In this document: positions 5,680 through 27,584 of the stretch, one piece after another | Layout: each line of letters begins with the position of its first letter | Position numbering within the stretch: position 1 is the stretch's first letter | From: Trichocoleus desertorum NBK24 | GTDB lineage: Bacteria; Cyanobacteriota; Cyanobacteriia; FACHB-46 | Length of the DNA stretch: 64,000 nucleotides | Reading direction: 5' to 3' | NCBI RefSeq assembly: GCF_030409055.1 | Contig: NZ_CP116619.1 | Coordinates: 4,952,924-5,016,923 of the forward strand | The notes under the pieces: model-generated | Databases searched by the model: none | What the model was told of the DNA's origin: nothing | The model's input: the letters and a program-made list of their open reading frames with translations, nothing else | Made by a program: the position numbers and the translations under genes

Positions 5680-5695
5680 ATGGCTCTTTTGACTA

Positions 5696-6844: not shown

Positions 6845-6876
6845 TCACTTTCTAAAAGTTTTATAGTATTGCACCT

Positions 6877-7416
6877 GTGAATTTTAGAATCATCACTGGT
6901 AGTGTTCTCAGTTATGGCTACAGTCAACTGCTTGGGAACCTGCCATCTCGTAAAATCCGCATGGTCTATCTCAGAGCCTATTTGGCACAAGTGGGAGTGG
7001 GAACTTCTGTCCAAATGGGATGTCGATTTTTGAATGGGAGAAAGGTGTCTTTAGGCGATCGCAATGTGATTAACTTCGGCTGCCTATTGGATGGTCGCCA
7101 TTACCAGATCCAGACGGGTTCTGATGTCTCCATTGGTCCAGAAGCGACAATCTTAACCCTAGGACACGATCCGCAGTCGCCAGAATTTGGCGATAAGGGC
7201 GGCGATGTAATCATAGGCGATCGCGTTTGGATTGCTTACCGAGCGATTATTTTGCCAGGAGTCAGGATTGGCGAGGGTGCCGTAGTGGCCGCGGGTTCTG
7301 TCGTGACAAAAGATGTGGAACCTTACACCATTGTTGCCGGAAGCCCAGCCCGATTCGTGAAAAAGCGATCGCCTGACTTGCACTACACACTGAACTACCA
7401 ACCGTGGCTACTTTGA
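6877..7416 (+). CDS. Left-handed beta-helix (hexapeptide repeat) O-acyltransferase
   Basis: A 179-residue protein with GTG start. Isoleucine/valine-rich hexapeptide repeats run from about residue 60 onward. They include the acetyltransferase signature IGDRVWIAYRAIILPGVRIGEGAVVAAGSVVTKDVEPYTIVAGSPARFVKKR, which closely fits the WcaF/NodL/CysE-like group. The catalytic His is probably in ILTLGHDPQ. It likely O-acetylates a sugar of the polymer made here. Its end overlaps the next glycosyltransferase by 13 bases, showing tight coupling. Confidence 0.85.
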   Translation: MNFRIITGSVLSYGYSQLLGNLPSRKIRMVYLRAYLAQVGVGTSVQMGCRFLNGRKVSLGDRNVINFGCLLDGRHYQIQTGSDVSIGPEATILTLGHDPQSPEFGDKGGDVIIGDRVWIAYRAIILPGVRIGEGAVVAAGSVVTKDVEPYTIVAGSPARFVKKRSPDLHYTLNYQPWLL

Positions 7417-9987: not shown

Positions 9988-10038
9988 AATTTTTTGCCCA
10001 TTGATGCCCGAATCTAGCCTGGTTAAAGTCAGCTAATT

Positions 10039-11235: not shown

Positions 11236-11287
11236 ACTTAACGACTAATTGAGCAATTAGGAAGTAGCCACTCTATTGGGCCAAACC

Positions 11288-11986
11288 ATGTCTGAAGCCA
11301 TTTACACCCAAGGTCAGTATCTTGAAAATAACCCTACGTGGCATATTGAAGATTCAGCTTGGAAAGCAGAGCAAATTTTTAGAGTTATTCAAAACAACAA
11401 TCTCCAACCTTTATCGATTTGTGAGGTTGGATGTGGCTCCGGTGAAATCCTCAATCAACTCTACCTAAAAATGCCCGACGGTCTGAATTTTACGGGCTAT
11501 GAGATTTCCCCACAAGTTTATCAAAACTGTCAGGAAAAAGCTAAGGATAGATTGAGCTTTAAGTTGGGAAATTTCTATCAAGAGGAAAATACTTACTTTG
11601 ATTTGTTATTATGCATTGATGTTTTTGAACATATTGAAGATTACTTCGGTTTTTTAAAAAACCTGCGTCAAAAATCAAAGTATCAAATATTTCATATTCC
11701 CTTGGATATTTCAGTTTCTTCAGTTTTAAGAAGCACACCGATTTTAACAGCACGCCAACTAGTCGGTCACCTTCATTACTTTTCTAAAGAAACAGCTCTA
11801 GCCACCTTAAGAGACACAGGCTACGAAATTTGCGATTATTTCTACACAGCCGGTTCTATTGATTTGCCTGTCAAGCATTTCAAAACGTTATTAGGCAACT
11901 TGCCCCGGAAAGTATTGTATAGCCTGAATCAAGACATTGCAGTCCGACTCCTAGGTGGATACTCTCTGTTAGTACTTACACGGTAA
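11288..11986 (+). CDS. Class I SAM-dependent methyltransferase
   Basis: The start is taken as ATG 11288 (MSEAIYTQGQYLENNPTWH); a TTG at 11276 is in frame but weaker. About 232 residues. The SAM-binding motif is SICEVGCGSGEILNQL, with the acidic ribose contact in FTGYEISPQVY and the post-I motif FDLLLCIDVFEHIEDYFGFL of the Methyltransf_11/23 group. It is the third methyltransferase of the glycan locus and the last forward gene before the reverse-strand sulfotransferase. The substrate is probably a sugar or a terminal cap, by context only. Confidence 0.8.
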   Translation: MSEAIYTQGQYLENNPTWHIEDSAWKAEQIFRVIQNNNLQPLSICEVGCGSGEILNQLYLKMPDGLNFTGYEISPQVYQNCQEKAKDRLSFKLGNFYQEENTYFDLLLCIDVFEHIEDYFGFLKNLRQKSKYQIFHIPLDISVSSVLRSTPILTARQLVGHLHYFSKETALATLRDTGYEICDYFYTAGSIDLPVKHFKTLLGNLPRKVLYSLNQDIAVRLLGGYSLLVLTR

Positions 11987-12076
11987 AACTGCCTTCTAAT
12001 TTTACAGCAGTAGTGCGTAGATCTTACCTACTTAATCATGGAGGCCGCTCGTAATGTATTTAACCGCAACTTATTA

Positions 12077-13048
12077 TTAACAGCAGATGTTTTCCAAGGG
12101 AATAGCCCGATTCGCAAACCCAAAACGTTCTTGGTAACAATTAAAAGCATCGCACATTCTCGGTGGCAAGCTGAGAGTCTCTCTCAAATTAGGGGGAGTT
12201 GGCCTAATCATGTTAGTTGCTTGATTAAACCAGAGTTTTGTGCTACCTAGCTCTAGAAATTTACAGAGATTACGTAATGTATTTTCTGGATTTACAGTTA
12301 ACTGCTCGTATGTAACTTCATAGAGGCGATCGCCAAGTTGTTCGCGCCAGCGATCTACTTCACCCAAACTCACCAACCATTCGTAAGCACCTTTCGAGCG
12401 GTGGTTTTCACATAATTCTACTTCTTCAGGATAGTAGCTTGCCAAGGCCCCATCCCGTGACAAAGCCTTCCACTTATAGTTTTCTACTCCCCACCACTGG
12501 TTGAGATTGGGCTTACCTGCAATTTTATAGCTATTGGTTAAAGCAATCCGCTCAATTGAGCAGGAAACATCAACACCATTACGAATGATATGGATGAATT
12601 TTGCCTGAGGGGTCAAGCTATTTAAATAGCCTAGTCTCATCGCATTGAGGGGAGTTTTCTCTAGTAACAGATTCTCTTTGGGATTCATAACGTTACTAAA
12701 AAAAATTCGATTAAAACGTAATTTTGCTACCTCCGTTGCGTCAGCTTCATCCATCATGAATTTAGCATTAATCCGATGATAAAGATTCAGAACATCAGTC
12801 ATGGGATCGATAACAGACCAAAGATGATAAGGCTCAAAAAAATAGTTTACGTTATTGTGAATTGAAAATAATTGTCCGAGAACAGTGGTGCCCGAACGAC
12901 CACACCCAAGGATGAATGCAACATTTTGGGTAGAAATAGTCCGTTCATTTAAAGTTCTTTCTTGAGCTTTATACTCTGCTGATTTTCTTAAAAAGCTATA
13001 TTTTAAGGCTCGCAACCAGGGTTTTAATGAATTAGAATCCTGTTTCAT
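12077..13048 (-). CDS. PAPS-dependent sulfotransferase
   Basis: The start is set at ATG (complement of 13046-13048, MKQDSNSLKPWLRALK); an upstream in-frame TTG at 13126 would overlap the divergent gene. About 323 residues. The 5'-phosphosulfate-binding loop FILGCGRSGTTVLGQLF lies at residues 45-61, and the 3'-phosphate-binding strand FIHIIRNGVDVSCS around residue 165. It would move sulfate from PAPS to a carbohydrate or small-molecule hydroxyl. It is the only reverse gene in the glycan locus, and points to a sulfated polymer, as known for several cyanobacterial exopolysaccharides. Confidence 0.8.
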   Translation of the reverse strand: MKQDSNSLKPWLRALKYSFLRKSAEYKAQERTLNERTISTQNVAFILGCGRSGTTVLGQLFSIHNNVNYFFEPYHLWSVIDPMTDVLNLYHRINAKFMMDEADATEVAKLRFNRIFFSNVMNPKENLLLEKTPLNAMRLGYLNSLTPQAKFIHIIRNGVDVSCSIERIALTNSYKIAGKPNLNQWWGVENYKWKALSRDGALASYYPEEVELCENHRSKGAYEWLVSLGEVDRWREQLGDRLYEVTYEQLTVNPENTLRNLCKFLELGSTKLWFNQATNMIRPTPPNLRETLSLPPRMCDAFNCYQERFGFANRAIPLENICC

Positions 13049-13104
13049 AACAAAATATTTAGTTTTCTGAGCAACTGTTTTCTTCTTTCTATTGTAGAAT
13101 TCTA

Positions 13105-14349
13105 ATGCTCCATCCGACAAGTTCAACTTTATTGGTAGAAATTAATGTTTCCCAAAAAATGAGGTTGGCTTTGAAAATTTTAATGATTAGCCCTTATATG
13201 GGTTCGATTTATGGTGGAACTTCCAAGGTAGTTAAAGACTTAGCCCAAGAATTGGGAAATCTTGGCATCACCGTTGATATCATCACAACAAATGCTAATG
13301 GTTCAGACAGGTTAGACGTTCCTCTAAACATCTGGATGCAAGAGAACTATTATCGAGTGCAGTACTTTCCTTGCTGGCATCGCTATGACTTCATTGTCAG
13401 CCAATCTCTAATCGCTTGGTTGTTTAATCATGTCGTTGATTACGACTTAGTTCACACCAATACCGTTTTTTCACCGCTAGTTTCACTCACGCACTGGATA
13501 TGTAACTTACGCAAAGTGCCCTATCTGATTACGCCGCACGGTATGCTAGAACCTTGGGCACTGTCCTACAAAGCTTGGAAGAAACGATTCTACTACGCTC
13601 TGTTTGAAAAGCCTGTTCTCCAACAGACTAGTGCGATCCATGTTTTGGCAAATTCTGAAGCCGATAATCTACAGTCTCTTGGTTTTCAACAGGCTGTTGT
13701 TGTCCCCAATGGTATTCATCGACAAGAATTTGAAACCCTGCCAGATCCAGAAATTTTCTATCAACAATTTCCTACTACTGTAAATAAAACCATAATTTTG
13801 TTCCTCGGTCGCATTGACCCGAAAAAAGGACTTGATCTACTTGCTCCTGCCTTTGCCAAAGTTCATCAGCAATTTCCTCATACCCATTTAGTTATAGCAG
13901 GACCAGATAGCATCGGTTTTCTGCCTATTGCTCAAAGCTATTTTGAACAAGCAGGTGTTCTAGAATCTGTAACTTTCGCCGATATGCTGACTGGTTGTTT
14001 GAAATATGCGGCTTTAGCTGCTGCCAGTTTATATGTTTCCCCTTCATACTCGGAGGGATTCAGTATGTCTGTACTAGAGGGGCTGGCTTCTGGTGTCCCT
14101 TGCGTGATTACCACAGGTTGTAATTTTCCCGAAGCGGCAAGGGCAGATGCTGCATGTGTAGTTGATATTGATGTTGACTCAATTGCAAATGCTTTACTGA
14201 AATGTTTGGGTGATTCGAGGCAGGCTAGGGAAATGGGCGATCGCGCCCGTCAATTTATTTTTCAAAACTATACTTGGGATGTAGCTGCAAGAAAACTGCT
14301 CCAGGTTTATACAGCTATTCTAAATCAGCAGCCTTTGCCAGAGTTTTAA
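13105..14349 (+). CDS. Glycosyltransferase family 4
   Basis: A 414-residue GT-B enzyme. ATG 13105 gives a longer N-terminus, but ATG 13159 (MRLALKILMISPYMG) sits right before the first beta strand and is equally plausible. The acceptor loop is YGGTSKVVKDLAQEL. The donor domain has IILFLGRIDPKKGLDLLAPAFAKV, LVIAGPDS and LYVSPSYSEGFSMSVLEGLASGVPCVITTGCNFPE, the full GT4 signature. It is divergent from the sulfotransferase gene and ends the polysaccharide locus, 38 bp from the convergent kinase gene. Confidence 0.9.
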   Translation: MLHPTSSTLLVEINVSQKMRLALKILMISPYMGSIYGGTSKVVKDLAQELGNLGITVDIITTNANGSDRLDVPLNIWMQENYYRVQYFPCWHRYDFIVSQSLIAWLFNHVVDYDLVHTNTVFSPLVSLTHWICNLRKVPYLITPHGMLEPWALSYKAWKKRFYYALFEKPVLQQTSAIHVLANSEADNLQSLGFQQAVVVPNGIHRQEFETLPDPEIFYQQFPTTVNKTIILFLGRIDPKKGLDLLAPAFAKVHQQFPHTHLVIAGPDSIGFLPIAQSYFEQAGVLESVTFADMLTGCLKYAALAAASLYVSPSYSEGFSMSVLEGLASGVPCVITTGCNFPEAARADAACVVDIDVDSIANALLKCLGDSRQAREMGDRARQFIFQNYTWDVAARKLLQVYTAILNQQPLPEF

Positions 14350-14387: not shown

Positions 14388-15719
14388 TTACGAAAAGTGG
14401 TGCAAGGGTAATCGAATGATAAACTCTGCTCCCCCGTCTGGAGTACAACCAACTTCAATTTCGCCTTGGTGTTTCTCAATAATTTGATAGCAGATAGATA
14501 GCCCTAGCCCTGTTCCCTGACCCACAGGCTTCGTGGTAAAAAACGGATCGAACAACTTGCTTTGGATTTCTAGCGGAATCCCCAAACCATTATCTTGAAT
14601 TCGCACTTGCACTTGATGGGAATTCAGCAGCTCTGTCTGAATCTTAATTTCCTTGTTAGGCTTCTCCGAGTCTTCTAGCAATGCATCCATCGCATTGTTC
14701 AGAATATTCATGAATACTTGATTTAGCTGAGCGGGATAGCACTCCACCAAAGGTAAATCCTGATATTCCTTGATGATGGTAATGCCTTGCTTAATCCGAT
14801 GATTCAAAATCAATAACGTGCTGTCAATGCCTTCGTGTAAGTTGACTGGCTTCATTTCAGCTTGATCCAGCCGTGAGAAATTACGTAATGACAGCACAAT
14901 CTGTCGAATGCGATCGGTTCCTATTTTCATTGAAGACAATGTTTTGGGCAGATCGTCAGCAACAAAATTTAGGTCAATAGTTTCAATATAATTTTGAATC
15001 TTTGGGCTTGGCTCAGGGTACTCTTCCTGATAAAGATTAACTAGGTCTAATAGTTCTTGAATATAGCTTTCAATATGTTTGAGATTGCCGTAAATAAAAT
15101 TAACAGGATTATTGATTTCGTGCGCTACCCCCGCCACCATCTGACCCAAACTCGACATCTTCTCGGTTTGGATTAGTTGAGATTGAGTTTTACGTAACTC
15201 TTGCAAAGTTTGCTCTAATTTTTGGGCTTGTGCTTGGGCAGTGAGAGCAGCCGTTTGAGCTTGATGATTTAGATAAGCTCTGGAGTGATATCTCAGGCGA
15301 GCCACAAGTTCAATTTTGTCAGGCAACTTCACCAAGTAATCGTTAATCCCCAAGGCAAAGGCTTCTGCTTTCACCTTCGGCTCATCTTTAGTTGAAAGCA
15401 CAATGAGCGGAATATTAAGGGTAATGGGATTAGAGCGAAAATGTCGCACTAACATTAACCCGTCAATGTTAGGCATGACCAAGTCTTGCAAAATTACCGT
15501 AGGAGCAATTTCCTTAGCCAATTGAATCGCTTGCCCAGGATCATTGCAGTAATGAAAGACAATATCTGGCTCAGAAGCCAGCATACGTCGAATGGCTTCC
15601 CCGATAATAATTTGATCATCAATTAGTAGAACTACAATCTGAGGAGCTATGGCAAGCGATGCTGGTTCGCTCAAGCATTCTAGATGGTCAGTAGCAATTT
15701 CTTGTGACATTGAGATCAT
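14388..15719 (-). CDS. WspR-type receiver fused to a histidine kinase
   Basis: A 443-residue cytoplasmic protein. An N-terminal receiver (about 27-150) has the acidic pair D34/D35, phosphoacceptor D79 in VILQDLVMPNIDG, the Thr/Ser of IVLSTKDEP and Lys in DYLVKLPDKIELVARLRYHSR. These runs match, as I recall it, the receiver of Pseudomonas WspR far more than a generic receiver. A coiled coil (150-190) leads to a HisKA domain with H200 in MVAGVAHEINNPVNFIYGN and a HATPase with N, G1 and G2 boxes (DNGLGIP, GTGLGLSI). No GGDEF domain is present. It is divergent from the Wsp-like operon, so CheA of that operon is its likely phosphodonor. Confidence 0.85.
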   Translation of the reverse strand: MISMSQEIATDHLECLSEPASLAIAPQIVVLLIDDQIIIGEAIRRMLASEPDIVFHYCNDPGQAIQLAKEIAPTVILQDLVMPNIDGLMLVRHFRSNPITLNIPLIVLSTKDEPKVKAEAFALGINDYLVKLPDKIELVARLRYHSRAYLNHQAQTAALTAQAQAQKLEQTLQELRKTQSQLIQTEKMSSLGQMVAGVAHEINNPVNFIYGNLKHIESYIQELLDLVNLYQEEYPEPSPKIQNYIETIDLNFVADDLPKTLSSMKIGTDRIRQIVLSLRNFSRLDQAEMKPVNLHEGIDSTLLILNHRIKQGITIIKEYQDLPLVECYPAQLNQVFMNILNNAMDALLEDSEKPNKEIKIQTELLNSHQVQVRIQDNGLGIPLEIQSKLFDPFFTTKPVGQGTGLGLSICYQIIEKHQGEIEVGCTPDGGAEFIIRLPLHHFS

Positions 15720-16145
15720 AAGCCAGGTTGATGAGATGATTGGGGCTTAATGCATGAATCTGTGTAAATATAAAGGCTTGAAGTGAAGGATTGAAGGATC
15801 TAAGTTTTAGAATGAATTTGACAATGTGTTGAATCGTTTAAATGACTAAATCTTAGGATTTAACCACTTCCAATCTATTAGAAGATGGCATTTGAGTTCA
15901 CTCTGGCGGTAGCAAGGTTGGCGGCAAAGAATTAGTTTGTTATCAATGCTAAGTAGTGAAAATATAATTTGATAGTTTAGCCTATACGCTATAGTTCCCT
16001 AATCCGTATTTTGGCTAATCTTCTTCCATCAAGTGACTGGATAAATTTTGCTCTAGTTTGGTCACTCTAGAAGTAACTCTCAGCGATCACCCCCGATCAC
16101 TGGCTGAGATGCCTGAAATTCTATTGGATCTCGTTAGTCTCCCTT
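15720..16145. promoter_or_regulatory. Divergent intergenic region between receiver-kinase and chemosensory operon
   Basis: No gene is visible in these 426 bases. They must carry the promoters of both the reverse kinase gene and the forward cheW-first operon. Two small inverted repeats lie near the operon start: AGTGAC/GTCACT (16032-16037 with 16061-16066) and TCTCAGC/GCTGAGA (16078-16084 with 16103-16109). The latter is 37 bases before the ATG and could fold in the 5' leader. No promoter boxes could be fixed with confidence. Confidence 0.45.
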
Positions 16146-16598
16146 ATGTTAATGCTGCTCTTTGCAATCGATGATGAGCGTTATGCCTTGGAGGGTCAGC
16201 AGGTAGTAGAAGTGCTGCCTTTGGTGAGCCTGACAAAACCGCATCAAGCGCCCCCTTGTGTTTCTGGCCTTCTGCACTATCGAGGCTCTATGATTCCTGT
16301 TGTTGATCTATGCCAACTGATTCGGGGTCGTCCTTGTCGCTCCTTTTTAAGTACTCGGATTATTGTGGCTCGCTTTCTCACCTCAGATAACCAGACCCAA
16401 GTTTTGGGTTTACTGGCAGAAAGAGTCACGCAGACCTTTGATGCCGCAGATGCCACGCCTATCCCGATCGGAATGGTTGTAGATACAGCGGCTTATTTGG
16501 GGAATAAAGTCTTAGATGCTCAAGGCATTATCCAGTGTCTTCACGTAGAACATCTGTTGTCTCCAGAACAACGAGCTAGTCTGCCAGTCGTGCAATAA
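16146..16598 (+). CDS. CheW-type coupling protein (WspB-like)
   Basis: A 150-residue single CheW domain. It begins LLFAIDDERYALEGQQVVEVLPLV, followed by VSGLLHYRGSMIPVVDLCQLI, the conserved CheW core, and LGLLAERVTQTF. It couples receptors to the CheA kinase on the cytoplasmic face of the membrane. It is the first gene of the operon, and its position before a CheR-TPR gene matches WspB in the Pseudomonas wsp order. The next gene begins 12 bases after its stop. Confidence 0.88.
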   Translation: MLMLLFAIDDERYALEGQQVVEVLPLVSLTKPHQAPPCVSGLLHYRGSMIPVVDLCQLIRGRPCRSFLSTRIIVARFLTSDNQTQVLGLLAERVTQTFDAADATPIPIGMVVDTAAYLGNKVLDAQGIIQCLHVEHLLSPEQRASLPVVQ

Positions 16599-16609
16599 GG
16601 TATCTGAGA

Positions 16610-17977
16610 ATGATCCAGGCTGCAATCGAGAATTTACTCAGACAAAAAATTGGGTTGAATGCAGCTGCGATTGGCTCGAATACGATCGCTAGAGCCGTCA
16701 GACATCGCATGACTAAGTGTGCCCTAGACGATGTTGCAACTTATCTCACTCAATTACAGACCTCAGCGGCAGAACTAGAAGCGCTGATTGAAACGATTGT
16801 GGTGCCCGAAACCTGGTTTTTCCGCGATCGCGAACCCTTCGTGCTTCTGGCTCACTATGTAATGTCTGAGTGGTTGCCTGCCCACCCCAACCAAGTCTTG
16901 AGAATTTTGAGTGCGCCTTGTTCTACAGGAGAGGAGCCTTATTCCATCGCGATCGCCTTGCTGGAAGCGGGGTTGACAGCTTCACAATTTCGGATTGATG
17001 CAGTGGATATTAGCCAAAAAGCGCTGCAAAAAGCGCAACAAGCTATTTACGATGAGTATTCGTTCCGAGGCACTGCTGCGCTCGGCAAGCAGCTAGAAAC
17101 TCAGGCTCAAGGCAGTGAAAAAAACAGTTTTCTCAAAGAGCAATACTTTCAGCGCCTGACAGAGGGCTACCAGCTCCATGAATCGGTGCGGAAAACAGTT
17201 AATTTTATTCAGGGAAATGTTTTAGAATCTCAGGCTTTATGGGGCCAATCAATCTACAATGTGGTGTTTTGCCGCAACTTGCTGATTTATCTGGATCAAG
17301 CTGCCAGAGAGCAAACCGTTTGTCGTTTAGATCAATTGCTGGTAAAGCAGGGATTATTCTTTGTCGGCCATTCTGAAATGGGGCAATTACCTTCCGCTCG
17401 GTTTAACCCAGTTCGACATTCGCTTGCCTTTGCTTTCCGTAAGCTAGACCATTGCCCTCCAGATAAAGCCCAATTCCTACAAACCCACGCTCAGTCTAGT
17501 CAGAAACGCAGTCCAGCGGCTCAGTCCCATCCAAAAAGAGACTCCGCCTTAGTTCAGAAATCTCCAGAGTTAAAGCCAGCGCATCCTGAGACTCTTGCTT
17601 CAAGTGTGCGGTCAAGCGGAACTAACTCCCAAACTGGCTCCCAGGTGATTGCTCAAGCGATCGCTGAAAAATCTTCTTTAACGGCTGCCAAAGCATTAGC
17701 TGATAAAGGTCAATTAACCGAGGCAGTCGTTGCTTGTGAAGTTTACCTCAACCGCCATCCTAGTTGCGCGGAAGCCTATTGTCTGTTGGGACAACTTTAC
17801 CAAGCAGTAGAGCAAGAAACAGCAGCCGAGCAATGTTTTCGTAAAGCGGTTTACTTGCAGCCCCAGCATGAAGAAGCATTGTTACATCTAGTTTTATTAA
17901 AGGAACAGTCAGGGGATGTAGCAAGCGCAAAGGTTCTACGGCAGCGATTACAACGAATTCATGTTTCTCAAAGCTGA
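16610..17977 (+). CDS. CheR-type MCP methyltransferase with C-terminal TPR (WspC-like)
   Basis: A 455-residue protein. The N-terminal helical CheR domain is followed by the SAM site LRILSAPCSTGEEPYSIAIALLEAG and NVVFCRNLLIYLD. A low-complexity Ser/Gln/Pro linker (about 285-340) leads to tetratricopeptide-like helices (about 350-450, including AEAYCLLGQLYQAVEQETAAEQCFRKAVYLQP). It methylates glutamates of the MCPs next door. A CheR fused to TPR is the hallmark of WspC-type proteins. None of the three MCPs ends in an obvious CheR-tethering pentapeptide, so the TPR may do the docking. Confidence 0.9.
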   Translation: MIQAAIENLLRQKIGLNAAAIGSNTIARAVRHRMTKCALDDVATYLTQLQTSAAELEALIETIVVPETWFFRDREPFVLLAHYVMSEWLPAHPNQVLRILSAPCSTGEEPYSIAIALLEAGLTASQFRIDAVDISQKALQKAQQAIYDEYSFRGTAALGKQLETQAQGSEKNSFLKEQYFQRLTEGYQLHESVRKTVNFIQGNVLESQALWGQSIYNVVFCRNLLIYLDQAAREQTVCRLDQLLVKQGLFFVGHSEMGQLPSARFNPVRHSLAFAFRKLDHCPPDKAQFLQTHAQSSQKRSPAAQSHPKRDSALVQKSPELKPAHPETLASSVRSSGTNSQTGSQVIAQAIAEKSSLTAAKALADKGQLTEAVVACEVYLNRHPSCAEAYCLLGQLYQAVEQETAAEQCFRKAVYLQPQHEEALLHLVLLKEQSGDVASAKVLRQRLQRIHVSQS

Positions 17978-18013
17978 TCCTCAACTCACCTGAGCTAATG
18001 TGAATCTTTTTTG

Positions 18014-18058
18014 TAGAGGTTTGTAGAAGAGATTATTTATCTCTGAAAACAACCTCTA
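18014..18058. repeat. Two-stem hairpin between the CheR and first MCP genes
   Basis: Outer arms TAGAGGTT (18014-18021) and AACCTCTA (18051-18058) enclose inner arms AGAGAT (18028-18033) and ATCTCT (18039-18044). All are perfect matches. There is no U-run after it on either strand, so it is not a standard terminator. It could be a processing or stability element that lets receptor transcripts differ in level from cheW-cheR. Confidence 0.6.
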
Positions 18059-18182
18059 TTAGTCGTGAAAATTTAGTGGGTTTGAGCTGAAGTTGGGAAA
18101 CATAGGTTATCTATTTCTCACCAGTCTCTTTGACTGAGCGCGATCGCCAGAGATTGCAAGAGACTATTTTAATTCTTGGCTT

Positions 18183-18190
18183 GGAGGAGA
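18183..18190 (+). promoter_or_regulatory. Strong Shine-Dalgarno for the first MCP
   Basis: GGAGGAGA lies 5 bases before the ATG at 18196. It is stronger than the sites before most neighbouring genes and fixes the start of the receptor. Confidence 0.75.
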
Positions 18191-18195
18191 ACTGA

Positions 18196-19905
18196 ATGCT
18201 TAAAAATATGTCATTGCAGAGTAGACTGATTGGCTCATTTGGCCTGATGAGCGCCATTGTTTTAGTAGCATCCTCAGTCGGATGGATGGGCATCTCCCGG
18301 CTGAGTAAGCATATTGATACATTAGGTACAAACAGTCTTCCTAGTGTGTCTGGGATTTGGAAAATTAATGAGGGACAGACTCAGGTTCAGTCATCCATGC
18401 GAGCTTTAGTCAATCCAGAAATTAGTGAAGAGAATAAAGAAGCCGAAACGACCCGCATCAAGAATTCTTGGAAACAAATTGATGATGGGTTTAGAGAATA
18501 TGAGTCAGCTCCCCAAACATCTGAAGAGGCACTTTTGTATAAAAGCCAGTTTAAACCCCATTGGGATGATTGGAAGCAAGATCATGAAAAATTTCTTCAG
18601 CTTTATGAAATTGTAAGACAAAACGGTTTAACTGAAGCTGAGGTCAAGACCCTTAACCAGTTTCTTGCCCTTGAGGAGCGTCCATCATTTGATTTGGTTA
18701 CAGAAGATTTATTGAGAGTTTTGGGCGTTAATGCTGAAGTTTCTAGAGCTGCTCAGCTTGCAGCGACTCAAGATAGTAGTCGGGCATCTTTTTGGGTGTT
18801 GTTTGCACTGATCGCGGGTCCTACAGTGGCGATCGCCCTAGGCATCTATCTCAGTCGCACGATCGCGAAGCCTTTGGGGACAAAAGTTGCCAATGTTGTA
18901 GTTGTGGCAGAGCAGATTTCGGCTGGAGATTTAACCACTCAAGTTGAGAGCGTGACTGACAGTAACGATGAGGTTGACAAGCTACTTATGGCTTTTCAGG
19001 TCATGACTCATAATCTCAATTCTTTAATTCGGCAGGTACAACAATCTGGCATTCAAGTCACAACTTCTGCGACAAAAATTGCAGCTTCTGGTAAGCAATT
19101 GGAAGCCACTGTGACAGAACAGGTTGCTGCCACTAATGAAGTGGTTGTAACTGCAAAAGAAATTGCGGCTACTTCTGGAGAACTTGCCAACACGATGGAA
19201 GAAGTTGCCACCATGTCTCAAGAAACGACTGTGGCGGCAGCTGCCAATCAAGAAGATTTGATCCGGATGGCAACAACCATGCGTCAGCTAGTGGCAGCGA
19301 CCAACTCCATTTCTGCCAAGCTGGAAGTTATTAGCGATAAAGCAAACAACATTAATAGTGTGGTCAACACCATTACGAAGGTGGCCGATCAGACGAACCT
19401 CCTGTCACTTAATGCCGCGATCGAAGCCGAAAAAGCAGGGGAATATGGGTTGGGCTTTGCGGTGGTAGCGAGAGAAATCCGACGCTTAGCGGACCAAACC
19501 GCTGTGGCTACTCTTGACATTGAGCAGATGGTAAAAGAGATGCAATCTTCAGTCTCCACCGGAGTCATGGAGATGGATAAGTTTACCAAAGAAGTAGGTC
19601 GAGGCATGGAAGATGTGGGCAATATCAGTGAGCAGTTAGGGGAAATTATTGAGCAAGTGCAAGCCCTATCCCCCCGATTTTCGGTGGTGAATCAAGGCAT
19701 GGAAGCTCAGTCTCAGGGAGCACAGCAAATCAGCGAAGCAATGGTTCAGTTAAGTGAAACTTCTGTGCAAACGGCTGACGCTTTGCAGGAAATCAACCGA
19801 GCGATCGATCAGTTAAACCAAGCAGCTCAAGGCTTGCGCCAAGAAATTTCTCGCTTTAAGGTAGGCGCGATCACCCTGGAACTACAACCACTCTATAGCT
19901 ACTAA
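18196..19905 (+). CDS. Methyl-accepting chemotaxis protein 1 (WspA-like)
   Basis: A 569-residue receptor. A first membrane helix (about 9-30) is followed by a periplasmic, mostly helical sensor (about 35-195) of the four-helix-bundle type, a second helix (about 196-218), a HAMP domain, and a long signalling coiled coil. The tip reads [39 protein letters not shown]; the [14 protein letters not shown] form is the one I associate with WspA rather than motility receptors (LALNAAIEAARAGE). The gene is the first of three tandem paralogues. Its stop lies in a 15-bp tandem duplication. Confidence 0.9.
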
Positions 19906-19926
19906 ATAGAAAGCTACTAAATAGAA
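19897..19926. repeat. 15-bp tandem duplication spanning the MCP1 stop codon
   Basis: AGCTACTAAATAGAA occurs twice back to back (19897-19911 and 19912-19926). The first copy contains the TAA stop of the first MCP; the second repeats it in the short gap before MCP2. This is likely a recent slippage event. Confidence 0.9.
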
Positions 19927-19940
19927 AGTTTTGTCCAACC

Positions 19941-21584
19941 ATGACTCCAGTTACCAACATCAACCCCCGCAAGGCCCAGACTGAGGGAGTTTCTCATCTC
20001 AGAAATTGGATTGTTCTTCTATGCACGACGATTACGTTGCTAGGAGGTATCGGCTGGTACGTTTGGTTCTCTGCTCAGAGCGCTCAAAAAACTAGAGTTC
20101 TCAATCAACGGGTGCAAGAGCTGAGTGACAGCATGATCTATTTAGATGAAGTCTTAACCATGTCTGCCCGTCTGGCTGCCACCACAGGCGATGTCCGTTG
20201 GGAGAAACGTCATCGTCAGTTTGAGCCAACTTTAGAAGCTAATCTTCAAGAGACGATGCAGCTCCTACCTGCATTATTCGACAGTGAAGCAATGACAAAA
20301 GCCGAAACCGCGACTGATCAGTTGATTCAAATGGAACACGAAGCCCTGAACCTAGTGCGCCAAGGCAGATCACCAGCCGCTGCTGCTTTGCTATTTAGCC
20401 CCGAATACGAACGTCAAAAGCAAATTTACGCTCAAGGGCTGCAAGAATTGACAGCGGCGATGCAAGAGTTCGTGAAGCGTTCTCTACAAGCCCAAGCTCA
20501 ACGATCTTTTTGGGCAGCCGTCATCATTATTATTGCTCTACTGCTGCTGTTGCTGCTCTGGGGCAGTGTGTTACGCACGCTCGTGCAATACATTTGGACC
20601 GTCAAGAATCTTGTGGGCGTCACAGAAGAAATCGCTACAGGTGATTTAACAGTTCAAATCGCTGAAGGTACAGACCGCCAAGGTGAAATTGGTCAGTTTC
20701 TAGCTGCCTTAGAGAGCATGACCCAAAGCTTAAATGCCTTGGTGCATCAGGTACAAAACTCTGGCTTGCAGATCACAACTTCAGCCACGCAAATCGCCGT
20801 TTCTGGCAAACAATTAGAATCTACTGTCATCGAGCAAATTGCGGCCACAAATCAGGTAGTTGCGACTACCCAGGAAATTGCCTCAACTTCTCGCACCTTA
20901 ACTCACACGATGGAAGAGGTTGCTGCTATGTCGCAAACCACTACAGGTGCTGCGGCCAAAAGCCAAATGAGCTTGACCCAGATGGCAACCACGATGCAGC
21001 AATTAGTCAGTGCCACCACTACGATTTCTGGCAGATTAGAAACGATTAGTGAAAAGGCAAATAACATCAGCAATGTTGTTGCCACCATTACAAAGGTTTC
21101 TGATCAAACCAATCTCCTCTCCCTCAATGCCGCGATCGAAGCTGAAAAAGCAGGGGAAGCTGGTCGAGGTTTCAGCGTAGTTGCTAGAGAAATTCGTCGT
21201 CTTGCGGATCAAGCTTCCGTAGCTACCCTAGATATTGAACAGACCGTTCATGAAATGCAGTCAGCTGTTTCCACAGGCGTTATGGAAATGGACAAATTTA
21301 TGAAGGAAGTAGAAGGTGGCGTGGGAGAGGTGAATGGCATTGGTCGCCAACTGAAAGAAATTATTCAGCAGGTAGAGGCTTTAGTACCCAGATTTATCAC
21401 GGTCAATCAAGGCATGGAGGGGCAGACTCAAGGTGCTCAACAAATTAATGAAGCTATGACCCAACTGCGAGATACCTCTGAACAGACGGCAGATTCTCTT
21501 AAGGAAATTAATCACGCGATCGCGCAATTGCAAGATGTAGCCCAGAGATTAAATCAGGAAATCCTACGTTTCAAAATTAGTTGA
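19941..21584 (+). CDS. Methyl-accepting chemotaxis protein 2 (WspA-like)
   Basis: A 547-residue receptor starting at ATG 19941. A membrane helix at about 22-45 precedes a helical periplasmic sensor (46-190) with the motif MSARLAATTGDVRWEKRHRQF. A second, very hydrophobic helix (about 191-212, with a leucine run) leads to HAMP and a signalling coiled coil. The tip, [38 protein letters not shown], is nearly the same as in its neighbours, while the sensor is different. So the three receptors should feed one kinase with different inputs. The ligand is unknown. Confidence 0.9.
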   Translation: MTPVTNINPRKAQTEGVSHLRNWIVLLCTTITLLGGIGWYVWFSAQSAQKTRVLNQRVQELSDSMIYLDEVLTMSARLAATTGDVRWEKRHRQFEPTLEANLQETMQLLPALFDSEAMTKAETATDQLIQMEHEALNLVRQGRSPAAAALLFSPEYERQKQIYAQGLQELTAAMQEFVKRSLQAQAQRSFWAAVIIIIALLLLLLLWGSVLRTLVQYIWTVKNLVGVTEEIATGDLTVQIAEGTDRQGEIGQFLAALESMTQSLNALVHQVQNSGLQITTSATQIAVSGKQLESTVIEQIAATNQVVATTQEIASTSRTLTHTMEEVAAMSQTTTGAAAKSQMSLTQMATTMQQLVSATTTISGRLETISEKANNISNVVATITKVSDQTNLLSLNAAIEAEKAGEAGRGFSVVAREIRRLADQASVATLDIEQTVHEMQSAVSTGVMEMDKFMKEVEGGVGEVNGIGRQLKEIIQQVEALVPRFITVNQGMEGQTQGAQQINEAMTQLRDTSEQTADSLKEINHAIAQLQDVAQRLNQEILRFKIS

Positions 21585-21779
21585 GTTGGCGTCAAGTTAA
21601 AAATAGAGTAGTCTGAAAAATTAGTGAATTTTTATCTACTTCGTATTTGATTTCTAAATAATTTTATCTTTATAAACTCTGAGGTTGAAACTGATGTTTG
21701 TCCATCAAGATGGTGACTATAAACAAAAACAAACCCATTAATTAAGTATAAAGTGCTATGGCGTTTATGTATCAATCCT

Positions 21780-23396
21780 ATGTTTAAGCATAAGAGATTA
21801 AGAGATCGTATTTTGATAGGATACTCCCTACCCATTCTGTGTTTAGTAGGTTTGGGTGGAATTGTGCATGTCAACACAAGCAATGCTTTTCAAAGACAGG
21901 CAGAAGAAAAGATAGCTCAGACTACTATTATTGAGGTTGACCAAATGGTATTGGGCGTTGCCAGAATGGTCAGAAATGTTCGAGGCTATCTGCTATTTCC
22001 AGAAGATAAAAGCTATATCCAGTCTTATGATCAAGGTTTAGAACTATTCAATCAAGCCTATAGAAGTCTTGGTCGGCAAACTCTGAGCTTGGAACGCCAG
22101 CAGCAAGTAACGGATCTTGCCAAAAAGGTTAACCAAAATGAAGCAATTTCCCAACAAATTTTTGAGCTAATTGACTCAGGACAATTGGTTGAAGCTAAAG
22201 CTCTCCTTCAATCTCTACGAATGGATAATATTGACGAAGCCCGTCAACAGATTTTTCAGGTAGAGCAGGCTGCATTACAGCGCCTAGAAAAGGAATCTGA
22301 ATCTGCCCAAAAACTAGTTGTTGTTTCAGTTCTTTTGGGCGTAATCATATCTATTGTTTTTAATCTCATTGTGGGGCTTTGGCTCTCTCGCCAAGTGGAG
22401 TCTCAAATCGCAGAAATTGTAGATGTTGCTGAGAAAATCTCTGTCGGTGATCTAACCGTAAAGTTGAGGACTAGTAATATTAGCGATCGCAATGAAATCG
22501 GTCAGCTTCTCCTCGCCTTTCAAAGGATGATTCAGGGTCTCAGTGGATTCATTGGGCAAGTTCAACAATCTGGGATTCAAGTGACGGCTTCTATCACCAA
22601 ACTGACGGCTTTTGGGAAGCAACTAGAGGCGACTGTCACCGAACAAATCGCTTCTACCCATGAAGTAGTCGCGACCGCAAAACAAATTGCAGTGACTTCT
22701 GAAGACCTAGTACAAACGATGGAAGTCGTTGCTGCTAAGTCGCAAGATACCGCTACCAGCGCCACTGTGAGCCAGGTCAATCTCGCTGCTATGGCTAACA
22801 CGATGCATCAATTGGTGGCATCAACTACCTCCATCACCTCCAGATTAGAAGTCATTCGAGAGAAGGCCCAAAGTATTAATGGTGTGGTTAGCACCATTAC
22901 CAAAGTGGCTGACCAGACGAATTTACTGTCCTTAAATGCCGCGATCGAAGCGGAAAAGGCAGGAGAACAAGGGTTGGGCTTTGCGGTAGTGGCGAGAGAA
23001 ATTCGTCGATTGGCCGACCAAACCGCTGTGGCGACTTTAGATATTGAGCAGACCGTTAAAGAGATGCAGGCTTCTGTCTCTACTGGGGTGATGGAAATGG
23101 ATAAGTTTAACCAGGACGTGCAACGCGGGGTTGAGGAAGTGGGTGCAATGAGTCGGCAGATGGGACAGATTATTGAGCAAGTGACGACTCTAACTCCTCA
23201 ATTTTTAGTTGTGACGCAGGGGATGGAAACTCAGGCAGAAGGGGCACAACAAATTAGTCAGGTGATGAGCCAGCTCAGTGATGTCTCGGTGCAAACAGCA
23301 GATTCACTGCAAGAAATTAATCGAGCGATCGCCCAGCTAGGCGCAGTGGCGCAAGGGCTACATCAAGGGATTGCTCGGTTTCAGGTCAGCGATTAG
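21780..23396 (+). CDS. Methyl-accepting chemotaxis protein 3 with CHASE3-like sensor
   Basis: The start is ATG 21780 (MFKHKRLRDRILIGYS); an in-frame GTG at 21753 is weaker. About 538 residues. After the first membrane helix (about 9-30) the periplasmic part includes MVRNVRGYLLFPEDKSYIQSYDQGLELFNQAYRSL, the characteristic pattern of CHASE3 domains. A second helix, HAMP, and the same WspA-like tip ([35 protein letters not shown]) follow. A gap of about 195 bp separates it from MCP2, so it may have a promoter of its own. Confidence 0.9.
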   Translation: MFKHKRLRDRILIGYSLPILCLVGLGGIVHVNTSNAFQRQAEEKIAQTTIIEVDQMVLGVARMVRNVRGYLLFPEDKSYIQSYDQGLELFNQAYRSLGRQTLSLERQQQVTDLAKKVNQNEAISQQIFELIDSGQLVEAKALLQSLRMDNIDEARQQIFQVEQAALQRLEKESESAQKLVVVSVLLGVIISIVFNLIVGLWLSRQVESQIAEIVDVAEKISVGDLTVKLRTSNISDRNEIGQLLLAFQRMIQGLSGFIGQVQQSGIQVTASITKLTAFGKQLEATVTEQIASTHEVVATAKQIAVTSEDLVQTMEVVAAKSQDTATSATVSQVNLAAMANTMHQLVASTTSITSRLEVIREKAQSINGVVSTITKVADQTNLLSLNAAIEAEKAGEQGLGFAVVAREIRRLADQTAVATLDIEQTVKEMQASVSTGVMEMDKFNQDVQRGVEEVGAMSRQMGQIIEQVTTLTPQFLVVTQGMETQAEGAQQISQVMSQLSDVSVQTADSLQEINRAIAQLGAVAQGLHQGIARFQVSD

Positions 23397-23413
23397 TCAA
23401 CTCAGCCCACCTT

Positions 23414-24106
23414 ATGAATCAACCCAACCTGTCCTCTTCCAACCTACCCTCTGCCTCGGAACGTTGCTGGAATCACATTGGTGTCTCCGGCGATCGCTCC
23501 TGTCCAGAACTTGTAGAAATGATCCATTGTCGCAACTGCTCTGTCTATGCTCAGGCGGGCCGCAGTTTGCTAGAGCGAGAAATTCCAGCCAGTTATCTGC
23601 TGGAGTGGACTAGCTCTTTAGCTGAAGAGAAAACGGAACCTACAGCGGGCACTCTATCAGTAGTCATCTTTCGCTTGGGTCGTGAGTGGTTAGCTTTACC
23701 CGCACTCTTATTTCAAGAAATTACACCGATTACTTCTGTCCGGACGTTGCCCCATCGGAGCAATCAGATCTTTCAAGGTTTGGTGAACATTCGCGGGGAA
23801 CTGCAATTGTGTGTCTCCCTCCGAGATTTGCTTGGCATTGAGCAGGCAACGGTTCACTCAACCAACCAACAGGTTACTTATCAACGGATGGTGGTAGTGC
23901 AAAGCCAAAAAAGTAGTTGGGTGTTTCCGGCAGATGAAGTGTATGGAGTGCAATCTATCCGCCTAGACGAAATCCGCAATTTGCCTGCTACCCTCTCCAA
24001 TGCTAAAGACACCTACACCAAAGGCATTATCAACTGGCAAAACCATAGTGTCAGCTACCTAGATGACGAGTTGCTGTTTTACACGCTGAATCGGAGGATT
24101 CTGTGA
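23414..24106 (+). CDS. CheW-type coupling protein with Cys-rich N-terminus (WspD-like)
   Basis: A 230-residue protein. The N-terminal third carries the cysteine pattern CWNHIGVSGDRSCPEL...HCRNCSVYAQAGR (residues about 18-50), which fits the N-terminal extension I recall in WspD. A CheW domain follows: VVIFRLGREWLALPALLFQEITPI, FQGLVNIRGELQLCVSLRDLLGI, and WVFPADEVYGVQSI. The cysteines could bind a metal. It is the second CheW of the operon, directly before cheA with a 4-base overlap (GTGA). Confidence 0.9.
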   Translation: MNQPNLSSSNLPSASERCWNHIGVSGDRSCPELVEMIHCRNCSVYAQAGRSLLEREIPASYLLEWTSSLAEEKTEPTAGTLSVVIFRLGREWLALPALLFQEITPITSVRTLPHRSNQIFQGLVNIRGELQLCVSLRDLLGIEQATVHSTNQQVTYQRMVVVQSQKSSWVFPADEVYGVQSIRLDEIRNLPATLSNAKDTYTKGIINWQNHSVSYLDDELLFYTLNRRIL

Positions 24107-26550
24107 GGAGCGATAACCAGGATTTTAGCCATTTCTCAATGCTGGAATTGTTCCGGATGGAGGTGGAAGCCCAAGCCACGGTTTTAAACCACGGTCTGCT
24201 AGAGCTGGAAACTAATCCTGGAATGCCTGAGACGCTGGAATCGCTGATGCGGGCTGCTCACTCGATCAAAGGAGCCGCACGAATTATTGATTTAGAGGTG
24301 GGCGTCAAATTGGCTCATGTCATGGAAGACTGCTTTACCAGTGCCCAAATGGGCGTTGTGACCTTGGCAGCGGCACAAATTGATGTGTTGCTACAAGGCG
24401 TTGATTTGCTGTTACGACTGAGTTGTGTGCCAGAAACCCAGCTTCAGGCTTGGCTGGCAGAACAGGCTGATGGAATTGAAGCGTTGTTGTCTGCGATCGC
24501 CACTTTACTAGATCCCCAACCGCAACCCCTAGCCAACGAGCTACCAGCAATTTCTGACCTTACAGTTCCAATTGAGTTAACGCCAGTAGTAGCTGTTGCA
24601 CCTGAGAAATTTAATGCCGCATCGATTCTAGAAGCAGAAGCGATCGCAGCTCACGTTTCCCCGCTCATGGTCGAGCCAGTGACGGTTCAGGGGTCAGTAA
24701 CTTCTACGGGTGCGATCGCTGAGCCAATGGTTCCGATTCAGGCATCCCCGATGACTAAAACCATGCCCTTCGGTTCGGCGGGGGGACAGGGAGCCGACAC
24801 CCAAGATCGGGTGGTTCGAGTCAGTGCCGACAACCTCAGCCGCTTGATGGGGTTAGCCGGAGAGTCTCTAGTCGAAGCGAACTGGTTACAGCCCTTTGCC
24901 GATTCACTACTGAAGCTGAGACGGCAGCAAACCGAACTGTCTACGTTAATCGAAAAGCTGCAAGGATCGCTAGCTGAACAGAGCCTAAATCAGCGTAGTG
25001 AAAACTACCTGAATGCGGTACGGCAACAAGCTAGTAGTTGTCGGGAGATGCTGAGCGATCGCTTAAATGAACTAGAGCTATTTGCCCGCCGTTCTGCCAA
25101 TTTGTCCGATCGCCTCTATCGCGAAGTGCTGGCGAGTCACATGCGCCCTTTTGCCGATGGGGTGCAGGCATTTCCTCGGATGGTGCGAGATTTGGGCAGA
25201 CAGTTAGACAAGCAGATCCGCTTTGAGGTCTTGGGCAAAGCCACGGATGTAGACCGGGACATCTTAGAGAAGCTAGAAGCGCCGCTGACTCACCTACTTC
25301 GTAATGCAATTGATCACGGCATTGAGCCGATGGCAGAGCGTTTGGCAGCGGGTAAACCAGCAGAAGGGTTAGTGCGCCTAGAAGCAGTGCATCAGGGTGG
25401 AATGCTCTCGATCACTGTGTCGGACGATGGGCGAGGCATGGATTTTGAGCGTTTACGCACCAAAATTGTCAGCAAGCAATTGGTCAGCCCTGAGATGGCT
25501 CCTCAACTGACAGAAGCGGAGCTGATTGAATTTCTGTTCTTACCAGGTTTTTCCACCAACGACACTGTGACCGAGCTTTCGGGACGGGGTGTGGGGTTGA
25601 ATATTGTGCAGAACATGATCCAGGAAGTTGGGGGGAGCCTGCGAGCCGTCTCCAAACTGGGTAAAGGCATGACCTTTTACCTGCAATTGCCCTTAACTCT
25701 ATCGGTCATTCGCACGCTCTTGGTAGAAATCGCTGGGGAGCCTTATGCCTTACCGTTGACTCGCATTGACCGCATTGCGATGGTGGAACCAGAGGCGATC
25801 GCCGTAGCCGAGAACCGCCAGTTCTTCACCATCGACGGACAAAATATTGGGCTAGTCGTGGGCCATCAGGTTCTAGAGCTACCTGCCTTTGCCTACGATG
25901 CCAAGGCGCTGCCTGTGATTGTGATCAGCGATCGCCTCAGTTGTTATGGCTTGGTCGTCGATCGGTTTCTGGGTGAGCGAGATTTAGTCGTCAGACCGCT
26001 CGATTCGCGCTTGGGCAAAGTGAAAAATATTAGCGCTGCGGCCCTTTTAGAAGACGGTTCCCCAGTGCTGCTGATCGATGTAGAAGACATAGTGCGCTCG
26101 ATTGATCACTTGTTAACCAATGGTCAGCTCAGCCACATTAGCCGCAAAACTGCCAAGGTAGCGACCAAGGCTCAAAAGCGGGTTTTGGTCGTTGACGATT
26201 CCATCACTGTGCGCGAAATGGAGCGGAAGTTATTACAAAACAAAGGGTACGCGGTTGAGGTGGCAGTCAATGGAGTCGATGGCTGGAATGCCATTCGTAC
26301 AGGTCATTTTGATTTGATTGTGACCGACATTGACATGCCCCGGATGAATGGAATTGAGTTGATCGCCCAGCTAAAGCAACATGCCACCCTCAAGGCTTTA
26401 CCCGTGATTATTGTTTCTTACAAAGATCGAGAAGAAGACCGGATGCGAGGACTCGAAGTGGGAGCGGACTACTACCTGACCAAGAGCAGTTTCCACGATG
26501 ACACGCTCCTAAATGCAGTGCGCGATCTCATCGGTGAGGCGATCGCATGA
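24103..26550 (+). CDS. Hybrid CheA histidine kinase with C-terminal receiver (WspE-like)
   Basis: An 815-residue kinase with GTG start overlapping the previous stop. Domains in order: Hpt with H53 in MRAAHSIKGAARII; a Pro/Ala/Val-rich linker (about 140-235) with no clear CheY-binding P2; dimerisation; HATPase with LRNAIDHGIEP (N box), VSDDGRGMDF (G1) and LSGRGVGLNIVQN (G2); CheW-like regulatory domain; and a receiver (about 690-810) with VLVVDDS, DLIVTDIDMPRMNG and Lys in YYLTKSSF. The receiver can act as a phosphate sink or adaptor, as in WspE and FrzE. It should phosphorylate its own receiver, CheB and the divergent WspR-like receiver. Confidence 0.93.
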   Translation: MRSDNQDFSHFSMLELFRMEVEAQATVLNHGLLELETNPGMPETLESLMRAAHSIKGAARIIDLEVGVKLAHVMEDCFTSAQMGVVTLAAAQIDVLLQGVDLLLRLSCVPETQLQAWLAEQADGIEALLSAIATLLDPQPQPLANELPAISDLTVPIELTPVVAVAPEKFNAASILEAEAIAAHVSPLMVEPVTVQGSVTSTGAIAEPMVPIQASPMTKTMPFGSAGGQGADTQDRVVRVSADNLSRLMGLAGESLVEANWLQPFADSLLKLRRQQTELSTLIEKLQGSLAEQSLNQRSENYLNAVRQQASSCREMLSDRLNELELFARRSANLSDRLYREVLASHMRPFADGVQAFPRMVRDLGRQLDKQIRFEVLGKATDVDRDILEKLEAPLTHLLRNAIDHGIEPMAERLAAGKPAEGLVRLEAVHQGGMLSITVSDDGRGMDFERLRTKIVSKQLVSPEMAPQLTEAELIEFLFLPGFSTNDTVTELSGRGVGLNIVQNMIQEVGGSLRAVSKLGKGMTFYLQLPLTLSVIRTLLVEIAGEPYALPLTRIDRIAMVEPEAIAVAENRQFFTIDGQNIGLVVGHQVLELPAFAYDAKALPVIVISDRLSCYGLVVDRFLGERDLVVRPLDSRLGKVKNISAAALLEDGSPVLLIDVEDIVRSIDHLLTNGQLSHISRKTAKVATKAQKRVLVVDDSITVREMERKLLQNKGYAVEVAVNGVDGWNAIRTGHFDLIVTDIDMPRMNGIELIAQLKQHATLKALPVIIVSYKDREEDRMRGLEVGADYYLTKSSFHDDTLLNAVRDLIGEAIA

Positions 26551-27584
26551 GAATTGCCATTGTTAATGACATGCTGTTGGCCGTAGAAGCCCTCCGCCGT
26601 GTGGTGGCAACAGTTTCTGAATATGAAGTTGCTTGGGTGGCCCGCACAGGAACCGAAGCAGTAACTAAAGCGGCTCAAGATACCCCAGATTTGATCTTGA
26701 TGGATTTGCTCATGCCAGAACTGGATGGGGTAGGAGCGACTCGTCAAATCATGGCTCAATCTCCCTGTGCGATCGTGCTAGTTACGGCAACGGTGAGCGG
26801 TCATGGTGCCAAGGTTTTTGAAGCAATGGGATATGGCGCTTTAGATGCGGTGAATACGCCCATTTTGGGGCCACAAGGACAAGGCGCGAGTGGCACTGAG
26901 CTGTTGGCTAAAATTTCGATGGTTGCCAAGCTGATTGGTAAATCTCCTGCCCGCAAGTCGCGATGGCTCGATCAAGCCAAGCCCGTCAGTTTTGCCCAGC
27001 CGACACCACCTTTAGTCGTGATTGGCGCTTCAACTGGGGGGCCACAGGCATTACGAACGATTCTGTCTCATTTTCCCGTCAACTTCCCCGCAGCGGTGGT
27101 TGTGATTCAGCATATAGATGCTCAATTTGCTCCCGGTTTAACGGAATGGCTCAATCAACAAGCTGCAATCCCCGTAAAAATTGCCCAGCCCGGACAATTT
27201 CTGCAAGCAGGGACTGTTTGTGTCGCCAGCACCAACAATCATTTGGTTCTACAGGCGGATCTGACCTTGGCCTATACACCAGAGCCAACTCAATCCACTT
27301 ATCGCCCTTCTGTCGATGTGTTTTTCAATAGTGTGGCAGCTCACTGGCCTCGCAAAGGTGTGGCGATTCTGTTGACGGGGATGGGCAAAGATGGAGCATT
27401 GGGGCTGAAGTCTCTCCACGCCACTGGTTGGCATACGATCGCTCAGAATCGGGAGACTTGTGTGGTTTACGGGATGCCCAAAGCCGCTGTTGAATTGGGG
27501 GCTACTAAAGAAGTTCTCCCCCTGCCCGCGATCGCCCCTGCTTGTCTGGATCAAGTGATTCCTCGCTGGGCCAGACGTGCCTAA
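26547..27584 (+). CDS. CheB protein-glutamate methylesterase (WspF-like)
   Basis: A 345-residue protein. Its ATG overlaps the cheA stop (ATGA). The receiver domain has DLILMDLLMPELDG with the phosphoacceptor Asp near residue 55. The methylesterase domain has the Ser of VVIGASTGGPQALRTIL, the His of VVVIQHIDAQFAPGL and the Asp of LLTGMGKDGALGLK, a complete catalytic triad. It removes methyl groups from MCP glutamates and closes the adaptation loop with the CheR. It ends the operon, 2 bases from the convergent phosphoesterase gene. Confidence 0.93.
   Translation: MRIAIVNDMLLAVEALRRVVATVSEYEVAWVARTGTEAVTKAAQDTPDLILMDLLMPELDGVGATRQIMAQSPCAIVLVTATVSGHGAKVFEAMGYGALDAVNTPILGPQGQGASGTELLAKISMVAKLIGKSPARKSRWLDQAKPVSFAQPTPPLVVIGASTGGPQALRTILSHFPVNFPAAVVVIQHIDAQFAPGLTEWLNQQAAIPVKIAQPGQFLQAGTVCVASTNNHLVLQADLTLAYTPEPTQSTYRPSVDVFFNSVAAHWPRKGVAILLTGMGKDGALGLKSLHATGWHTIAQNRETCVVYGMPKAAVELGATKEVLPLPAIAPACLDQVIPRWARRA

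Follow-up and report, generated by a model that had tools for sequence, protein, structure and literature searches.

The window analysed here is a stretch of 64,000 nucleotides from Trichocoleus desertorum NBK24, whose genome is a single contig of 5.46 Mb. On the minus strand at 14388..15719 lies a gene encoding a protein of 443 amino acids with an ATG start, here termed REC-HK, which was described from the ORF list, Pfam, a PDB search and a predicted model. The original prediction had drawn this reading frame exactly, and all four of its quoted peptide runs, as well as D79 and H200, were found in the translation. Pfam matches above the curated cut-offs were obtained for Response_reg (residues 30-142, 65.9 bits; containing D79), HisKA (191-286, 35.7 bits; containing H200) and HATPase_c (329-440, 92.2 bits), with a helix predicted at 135-233, which bears out the proposed fusion of a receiver to a histidine kinase; the C-terminal GGDEF domain of WspR was absent by Pfam. 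Both lysine 131 of the receiver and the kinase boxes are present in REC-HK. All ten simple REC-HKs compared contain the acid pair, the phospho-acceptor motif, K-[LF]-P, AHEINNP, the N box, DNGxGI and FFTTKP, and the glycine loop reads GTG[LI]GL in the six of them that a narrower pattern missed. Since the HisKA match spans 96 residues against a model of 66 positions, the kinase helix pair carries an insert (residues ~200-286). The same HisKA-stretch insert was observed at loci L043 and L083.

An intergenic region (15720..16145) separates REC-HK from a cluster on the plus strand, assigned by Pfam, of CheW (16146..16598; WspB position), CheR with C-terminal TPR (16610..17977; WspC position), an MCP with a 4HB_MCP_1 input domain and HAMP (18196..19905; WspA position), two further MCPs (19941..21584 and 21753..23396), CheW (23414..24106; WspD position), CheA with Hpt, HATPase, CheW domain and C-terminal REC (24103..26550; WspE position) and CheB with REC and methylesterase domains (26547..27584; WspF position). 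The clustering of CheW, CheR-TPR, MCP, CheW, CheA-REC and CheB at 16146-27584 identifies a Wsp-like operon, in a variant with the component order B C A A A D E F. REC-HK is divergent from it, as had been proposed, and the two other family genomes share this arrangement, with receivers 100% and 93% identical. A promoter scan of the intergenic region (15720..16145) gave one sigma-70-like match (plus strand, 15940-15968) against an average of 2.0 in shuffled sequences, and no promoter is claimed.

On its other side REC-HK adjoins a polysaccharide cluster (28-14349) of glycosyltransferases, an RGP-like gene, a hexapeptide transferase and a sulfotransferase, which is largely kept in the congener G387 and was not seen in the 16 kb beyond the REC-HK gene in G386. 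These genes would fit a matrix output of REC-HK, a weak hint, as just one of the two congeners was found to have them. Beyond the operon, at 28779-30083, lie a TnpB/OrfB-like transposase ORF, named by eye, and an antisense ORF; no match above 50% to this stretch was seen in those from both congeners, though the flanking genes are kept.

The receiver of REC-HK is of the WspR type. It matched the two WspR structures in the PDB at 177 and 174 bits and any other sequence at no more than 60 bits, and is 66% identical, without gaps, to the receiver of P. aeruginosa WspR (3bre). A family profile run on the fetched loci scored 115 receivers at 180 bits or above and the other 190 at 67 bits or below, a gap that is partly built in because the upper group was gathered by similarity. 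Searching 386 genomes with the receiver (E 1e-20; ten best candidates scored per genome) yielded, among the matches listed, none between 6.5e-48 and 1e-20. Within the three genomes of the window's family the best receivers had E values of 2e-83 to 8e-78, and the next receiver 4e-14. In a quick tree of 144 receivers, 32 of them generic and with long branches among these generic rows, the 112 WspR-type receivers fell on one side of a branch with an SH-aLRT support of 99. A generic hybrid-kinase receiver was rejected as an identity for the window's: the REC-HK paralogue L160 (434 aa) of the same genome grouped with the 32 generic receivers, and the window's stood apart. The grouping with generic hybrid kinases that the original prediction had named as counting against it thus did not occur. 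The genome holds one copy of the WspR-type receiver, and none of its 19 GGDEF matches was seen joined to one. The D79-bearing receiver also retains the residues that are invariant in 25 cyanobacterial proteins.

Linkage to Wsp-like clusters was surveyed in a phylum sample of 386 genomes, in which the receiver was found in 23 genomes and 25 copies, the window's included; stretches of approximately 16-20 kb were fetched around the other 24. CheB was present in all 25 stretches and CheA as well in 20, CheA not being seen in those of L036 (where the contig ends 4.4 kb past CheB), L042, L047, L051 and L055. The nearest chemotaxis gene was CheB in 22 of the 25, at 2-780 bases; in L041 and L057 it was an MCP following CheB, and in the window CheW, with CheB at the far end of the operon. 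Receiver genes lay downstream of CheB and on its strand in 21 cases and just upstream, on the same strand, in three (L042, L047, L051), so that 24 are on the cluster strand at the CheB end and that of the window is the sole divergent one. As the window's genome has five CheB genes, 20-kb stretches around which make up about 2% of it, linkage in all 25 cases greatly exceeds what chance would give. The lack of co-occurrence that had been named in advance as a second sign against the assignment did not appear.

In the wider collection CheA or CheB was found at 67 of 78 loci (L108 and L148, two of the 80, were dropped as lacking a closed receiver ORF). Of the remaining 11, six are full 20-kb stretches in which neither gene was seen (L097, L103, L109, L119, L136 and L156) and four are contigs of 4.6-14 kb; the last, L129, carries CheR, an MCP and two CheW genes. 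Loci from the plasmid collection had CheA or CheB in 9 of 9, from seven of 20 plasmid records fetched. Throughout, the listed ORFs were closed ones. Two groups of loci lack parts of the cluster within the fetched stretch. Cyanobacterial REC-PP2C genes are paired with CheB without CheA at L042, L047, L051 and L141, and four sulfur-bacterial bins (L103, L136, L154, L156) have a WspR-type receiver on a cyclase with neither CheA nor CheB, L154 and L156 additionally carrying a kinase distantly like the window's.

It is quite probable that REC-HK is the output protein of this cyanobacterial Wsp-like system and works by way of CheA, D79, a connecting helix, the kinase and a separate regulator. Judging from the Che families present, the MCPs would drive CheA, and the conservation of D79 together with the linkage to the operon points to D79 as the residue that CheA may phosphorylate. 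By analogy with the LvrB protein of Leptospira, phosphorylated receivers would then pair and bring their alpha5/linker helices together. In the predicted model a single unbroken helix (135-233) runs from alpha5 of the receiver through the linker into the H200 helix, and through it the kinase may be switched. The switched REC-HK would phosphorylate a separate response regulator, perhaps one common to many sister kinases. The model is of a monomer, with a mean pLDDT of 85.6 (70-85 around the kinase helices), a pTM of 0.50 and an alignment of 31 rows, five of them over the kinase. Its nearest solved folds by E value were LvrB (8vc9) followed by WspR (3bre, 3i5a), at global TM-scores of only 0.30-0.41. 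The predicted likeness to LvrB lies in the REC-helix-DHp-CA architecture; in sequence, LvrB was absent from the 60 best of 157 receiver matches and matched best in the kinase part. In LvrB, phosphorylation of the N-terminal receivers is described as leading the linker helices to form a coiled coil and freeing the catalytic domains, and such REC-kinase linkers are said there to favour multiples of seven (PMC13269768).

The distance from the receiver end to a catalytic landmark in the 35 diguanylate cyclases collected was 36 in 32 cases, 43 in one and 50 in two, all in a register of sevens, which suggests that a swap or indel in a cyclase linker would have to keep helical phase. It was 52 in seven of ten hybrid/PAS kinases, those that could be measured. 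Among 12 simple REC-HKs it was 54 in seven, 40 in one, 65 in the second gene of L109 and 53 in three, all of the window's genus; eight of the 12 are in register and the window's protein is not. Sevens-spaced linkers as a general rule were accordingly dropped. The start of the linker is alike across different outputs, and less so in the window's protein.

That last protein might have left the Wsp circuit, with a different kinase, or its own kinase domain, feeding the receiver as in an ordinary hybrid. Its gene is divergent and hence separately transcribed, its linker differs by one residue from the most frequent length, and the receiver sits on a branch of 0.49-0.52 where the median is 0.16-0.19. 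The receiver nevertheless keeps the residues invariant across the 25 cyanobacterial proteins, and in both other genomes of the family it likewise lies divergently next to the same operon, so that a departure from the circuit appears unlikely. A little less likely again is a reversed sign, in which the phosphorylated receiver would make the kinase a phosphatase of its target, leaving the downstream regulator less phosphorylated when CheA is active. The sign is not fixed by anything in the sequence, and kinase and phosphatase activities are combined in many kinases. The closest solved relative, LvrB, is nonetheless described as switched on by receiver phosphorylation (PMC13269768).

The stretch after H200 is nearly identical in the sister kinases, so that it does not discriminate between partners and lets no target be named; for the same reason the target of REC-HK may be a shared one. 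A neighbouring regulator was considered as target and dropped: a near-identical protein of 226 aa, with a LuxR-type end recognised by eye, lies 0.3-1.9 kb from the local REC-HK gene only at L036, L053 and L056. Seven loci were compared (L083 was outside the comparison), and it was not seen at the remaining four, nor at 9-34 kb of the window. From their length and order, the two conserved ORFs beside it are presumably groES and groEL, and adjoining these the regulator was read as housekeeping synteny.

The outputs joined to WspR-type receivers are diverse. Among the 25 copies of the phylum sample were 12 class III nucleotide cyclases, eight simple kinases, four SpoIIE/PP2C phosphatases, one PAS-hybrid kinase and no GGDEF protein; two genomes, G074 and G328, each have two systems, one with a kinase and one with a cyclase. 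A set of 112 receivers, not a census, was built from this sample, the best 80 genome-contig loci by similarity to the window's receiver, and the plasmids, with one receiver taken per locus. It comprised 35 diguanylate cyclases, 29 class III cyclases, 27 PP2C phosphatases and 21 kinases, as classed by Pfam for 21 of the 112 proteins and by BLAST clustering of the part behind the receiver for the rest. The motif GG[DE]EF was present in all 35 diguanylate cyclases. The kinases divide into nine simple cyanobacterial, ten hybrid/PAS and two Burkholderia WspH proteins; 19 of them formed one BLAST cluster, which was split by eye and by phmmer scores.

Record titles of the set name Cyanobacteriota, Pseudomonadota (alpha, beta and gamma), Thermodesulfobacteriota, Planctomycetota, Verrucomicrobiota, Lentisphaerota, Elusimicrobiota and Riflebacteria, many of the records being metagenome bins in which misbinning is possible; those titled by strain include the cyanobacteria Pseudanabaena biceps and Iningainema tapete, the desulfobacteria Desulfonema magnum and Desulfoferrobacter suflitae, Gemmata among the planctomycetes, and proteobacteria. 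GGDEF was found at two of 12 loci with cyanobacterial titles, both from Pseudanabaena, with identical receivers; their REC-GGDEF proteins amount to a cyanobacterial WspR. Given that GGDEF is this rare in cyanobacteria (none of the 25 copies, two of the 12 loci), the history implied by the original prediction, the replacement of a second messenger by a phosphorelay, is not established.

On the receiver tree, seven labels (the six outputs and 'generic') need 16 changes, against 88 on average when shuffled. On an operon tree of joined CheA, CheB, CheW and CheR from 82 loci (30 of the 112 being left out because they lacked CheA or did not supply three of the four proteins), the six outputs need 10 changes against 45 when shuffled. 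A careful tree of cyanobacterial receivers gave seven output changes, although approximately 135 receiver columns resolve little and change counts are silent on gain versus loss. The 28 cyanobacterial operons formed one side of a branch (97), with every output class except WspH among them. These comparisons show outputs that cluster and yet, by sequence and trees, have been exchanged several times while receiver and operon stayed; it is the receiver with the first linker residues that has been kept and the effector behind it that has been exchanged.

Three loci (L098, L100 and L109) each carry two WspR-type receivers with different outputs, the further receivers being outside the set of 112. 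At L098 (7630-9117 and 9944-11179) and L100 (9962-11422 and 11601-12791) a class III cyclase and a PP2C phosphatase are neighbours behind one operon. At L109, from Laspinema palackyanum, a hybrid kinase and a simple REC-HK (9765-12758 and 12777-14294) lie on opposite strands, with neither CheA nor CheB in 20 kb. Such neighbouring pairs could be intermediates of a swap.

The kinase part of REC-HK belongs to a cyanobacterial family, with more than 20 relatives in its own genome at 50-64% identity. A comparable protein, WspH, replaces the diguanylate cyclase by a kinase in Burkholderia, where wsp mutants of B. cenocepacia are described as having no significant change in c-di-GMP and the regulator RowR has been implicated downstream (PMC8552884, PMC4324302). 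Two loci, L078 and L079, were taken to be WspH on the grounds of species, architecture and a position upstream of the operon rather than by a labelled reference sequence. Acquisition of REC-HK by cyanobacteria from Burkholderia through gene transfer would account for the shared architecture and for a gene outside the CheB end of the operon in both, but is very improbable, as the window's kinase falls among cyanobacterial paralogues with WspH outside (98, with long outgroup branches), its operon among cyanobacterial operons (97) with that of WspH among Burkholderiaceae WspR operons (100), and the WspH kinases reach their best simple REC-HK at only 16.6 bits, neither being listed at E up to 10 with the window's kinase as query. 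The kinase tree and phmmer scores do not make REC-HK the same kinase by descent as WspH, and because the window's kinase is of a cyanobacterial family and only remotely WspH-like, the swap looks independent.

WspR-type receivers thus appear to have been joined to kinases on separate occasions, in Burkholderia and in cyanobacteria at the least, and a further joining, to hybrid/PAS kinases, is probable in Verrucomicrobia and in a Moraxellaceae bin. For the cyanobacterial simple REC-HK, the changes needed were one on the operon tree (support 15), three and four on the receiver trees and three on the kinase tree, where they involve starred branches that are also compatible with one origin.

In architecture and circuit REC-HK is of a known kind. 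Pseudomonas WspR (REC-GGDEF) shares its receiver and lies behind the same kind of operon; the window differs in having a histidine kinase as output, a divergent gene and the B C A A A D E F order. In WspH and the WspHRR system of Burkholderia, too, a kinase carrying a WspR-type receiver is encoded next to a Wsp operon; the window's kinase differs in being only remotely similar, in a linker of 53 residues against 17 in WspH, and in its separate place in the trees. CheR-TPR clusters were described in 2012 as having diverse outputs, with a kinase module on approximately 40% of response regulators, and modulation of the kinase by receiver phosphorylation was suggested for REC-HK proteins of such clusters (PMC3447774). 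That work, in the parts consulted, lists architectures and does not describe the receivers as one WspR-type family. Phormidesmis priestleyi is reported to have a Wsp cassette with a class 3 adenylate cyclase (PMC4971617), a cyanobacterial system with its output likewise replaced, by a cyclase and not a kinase; by description, this cyclase looks like the present class III group. The claim of an unusual or unprecedented circuit is hence not upheld, being preceded by WspH (PMC8552884, PMC4324302) and by the kinase modules of CheR-TPR clusters (PMC3447774). What is new is a cyanobacterial version of apparently independent origin and the wide reach of the receiver family; among the titles listed on Wsp or chemosensory outputs in the open-licence full-text literature, none was found to treat the WspR receiver as one effector-exchanging family across phyla.

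These findings bear on the published limits of Wsp. Kessler et al. restricted Wsp to beta- and gammaproteobacteria and WspH to Burkholderia, with one H- or R-system per genome (PMC8552884). The receiver with its Che cluster in cyanobacteria, planctomycetes, verrucomicrobia, desulfobacteria and alphaproteobacteria disagrees with the first restriction, and kinase versions outside Burkholderia and the paired systems of G074 and G328 bear on the others. Genes for WspR and WspH also occur in one replicon in B. cenocepacia (L063 and L079) and B. stagnalis (L064 and L078), with a whole R cluster beside WspR at L064 and only CheB pieces at L063; these records contradict the statement that no genome has both (PMC8552884).

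We consider it likely that Wsp is a sensing chassis present over about eight phyla rather than a c-di-GMP system, in which a conserved receiver and linker start would read CheA and the effectors behind them are exchanged, sometimes with two side by side. If this is true, the same kind of CheA is read across many phyla by one conserved receiver with changing effectors behind it, and the family would be a natural swap set for how one receiver drives cyclases, phosphatases and kinases.
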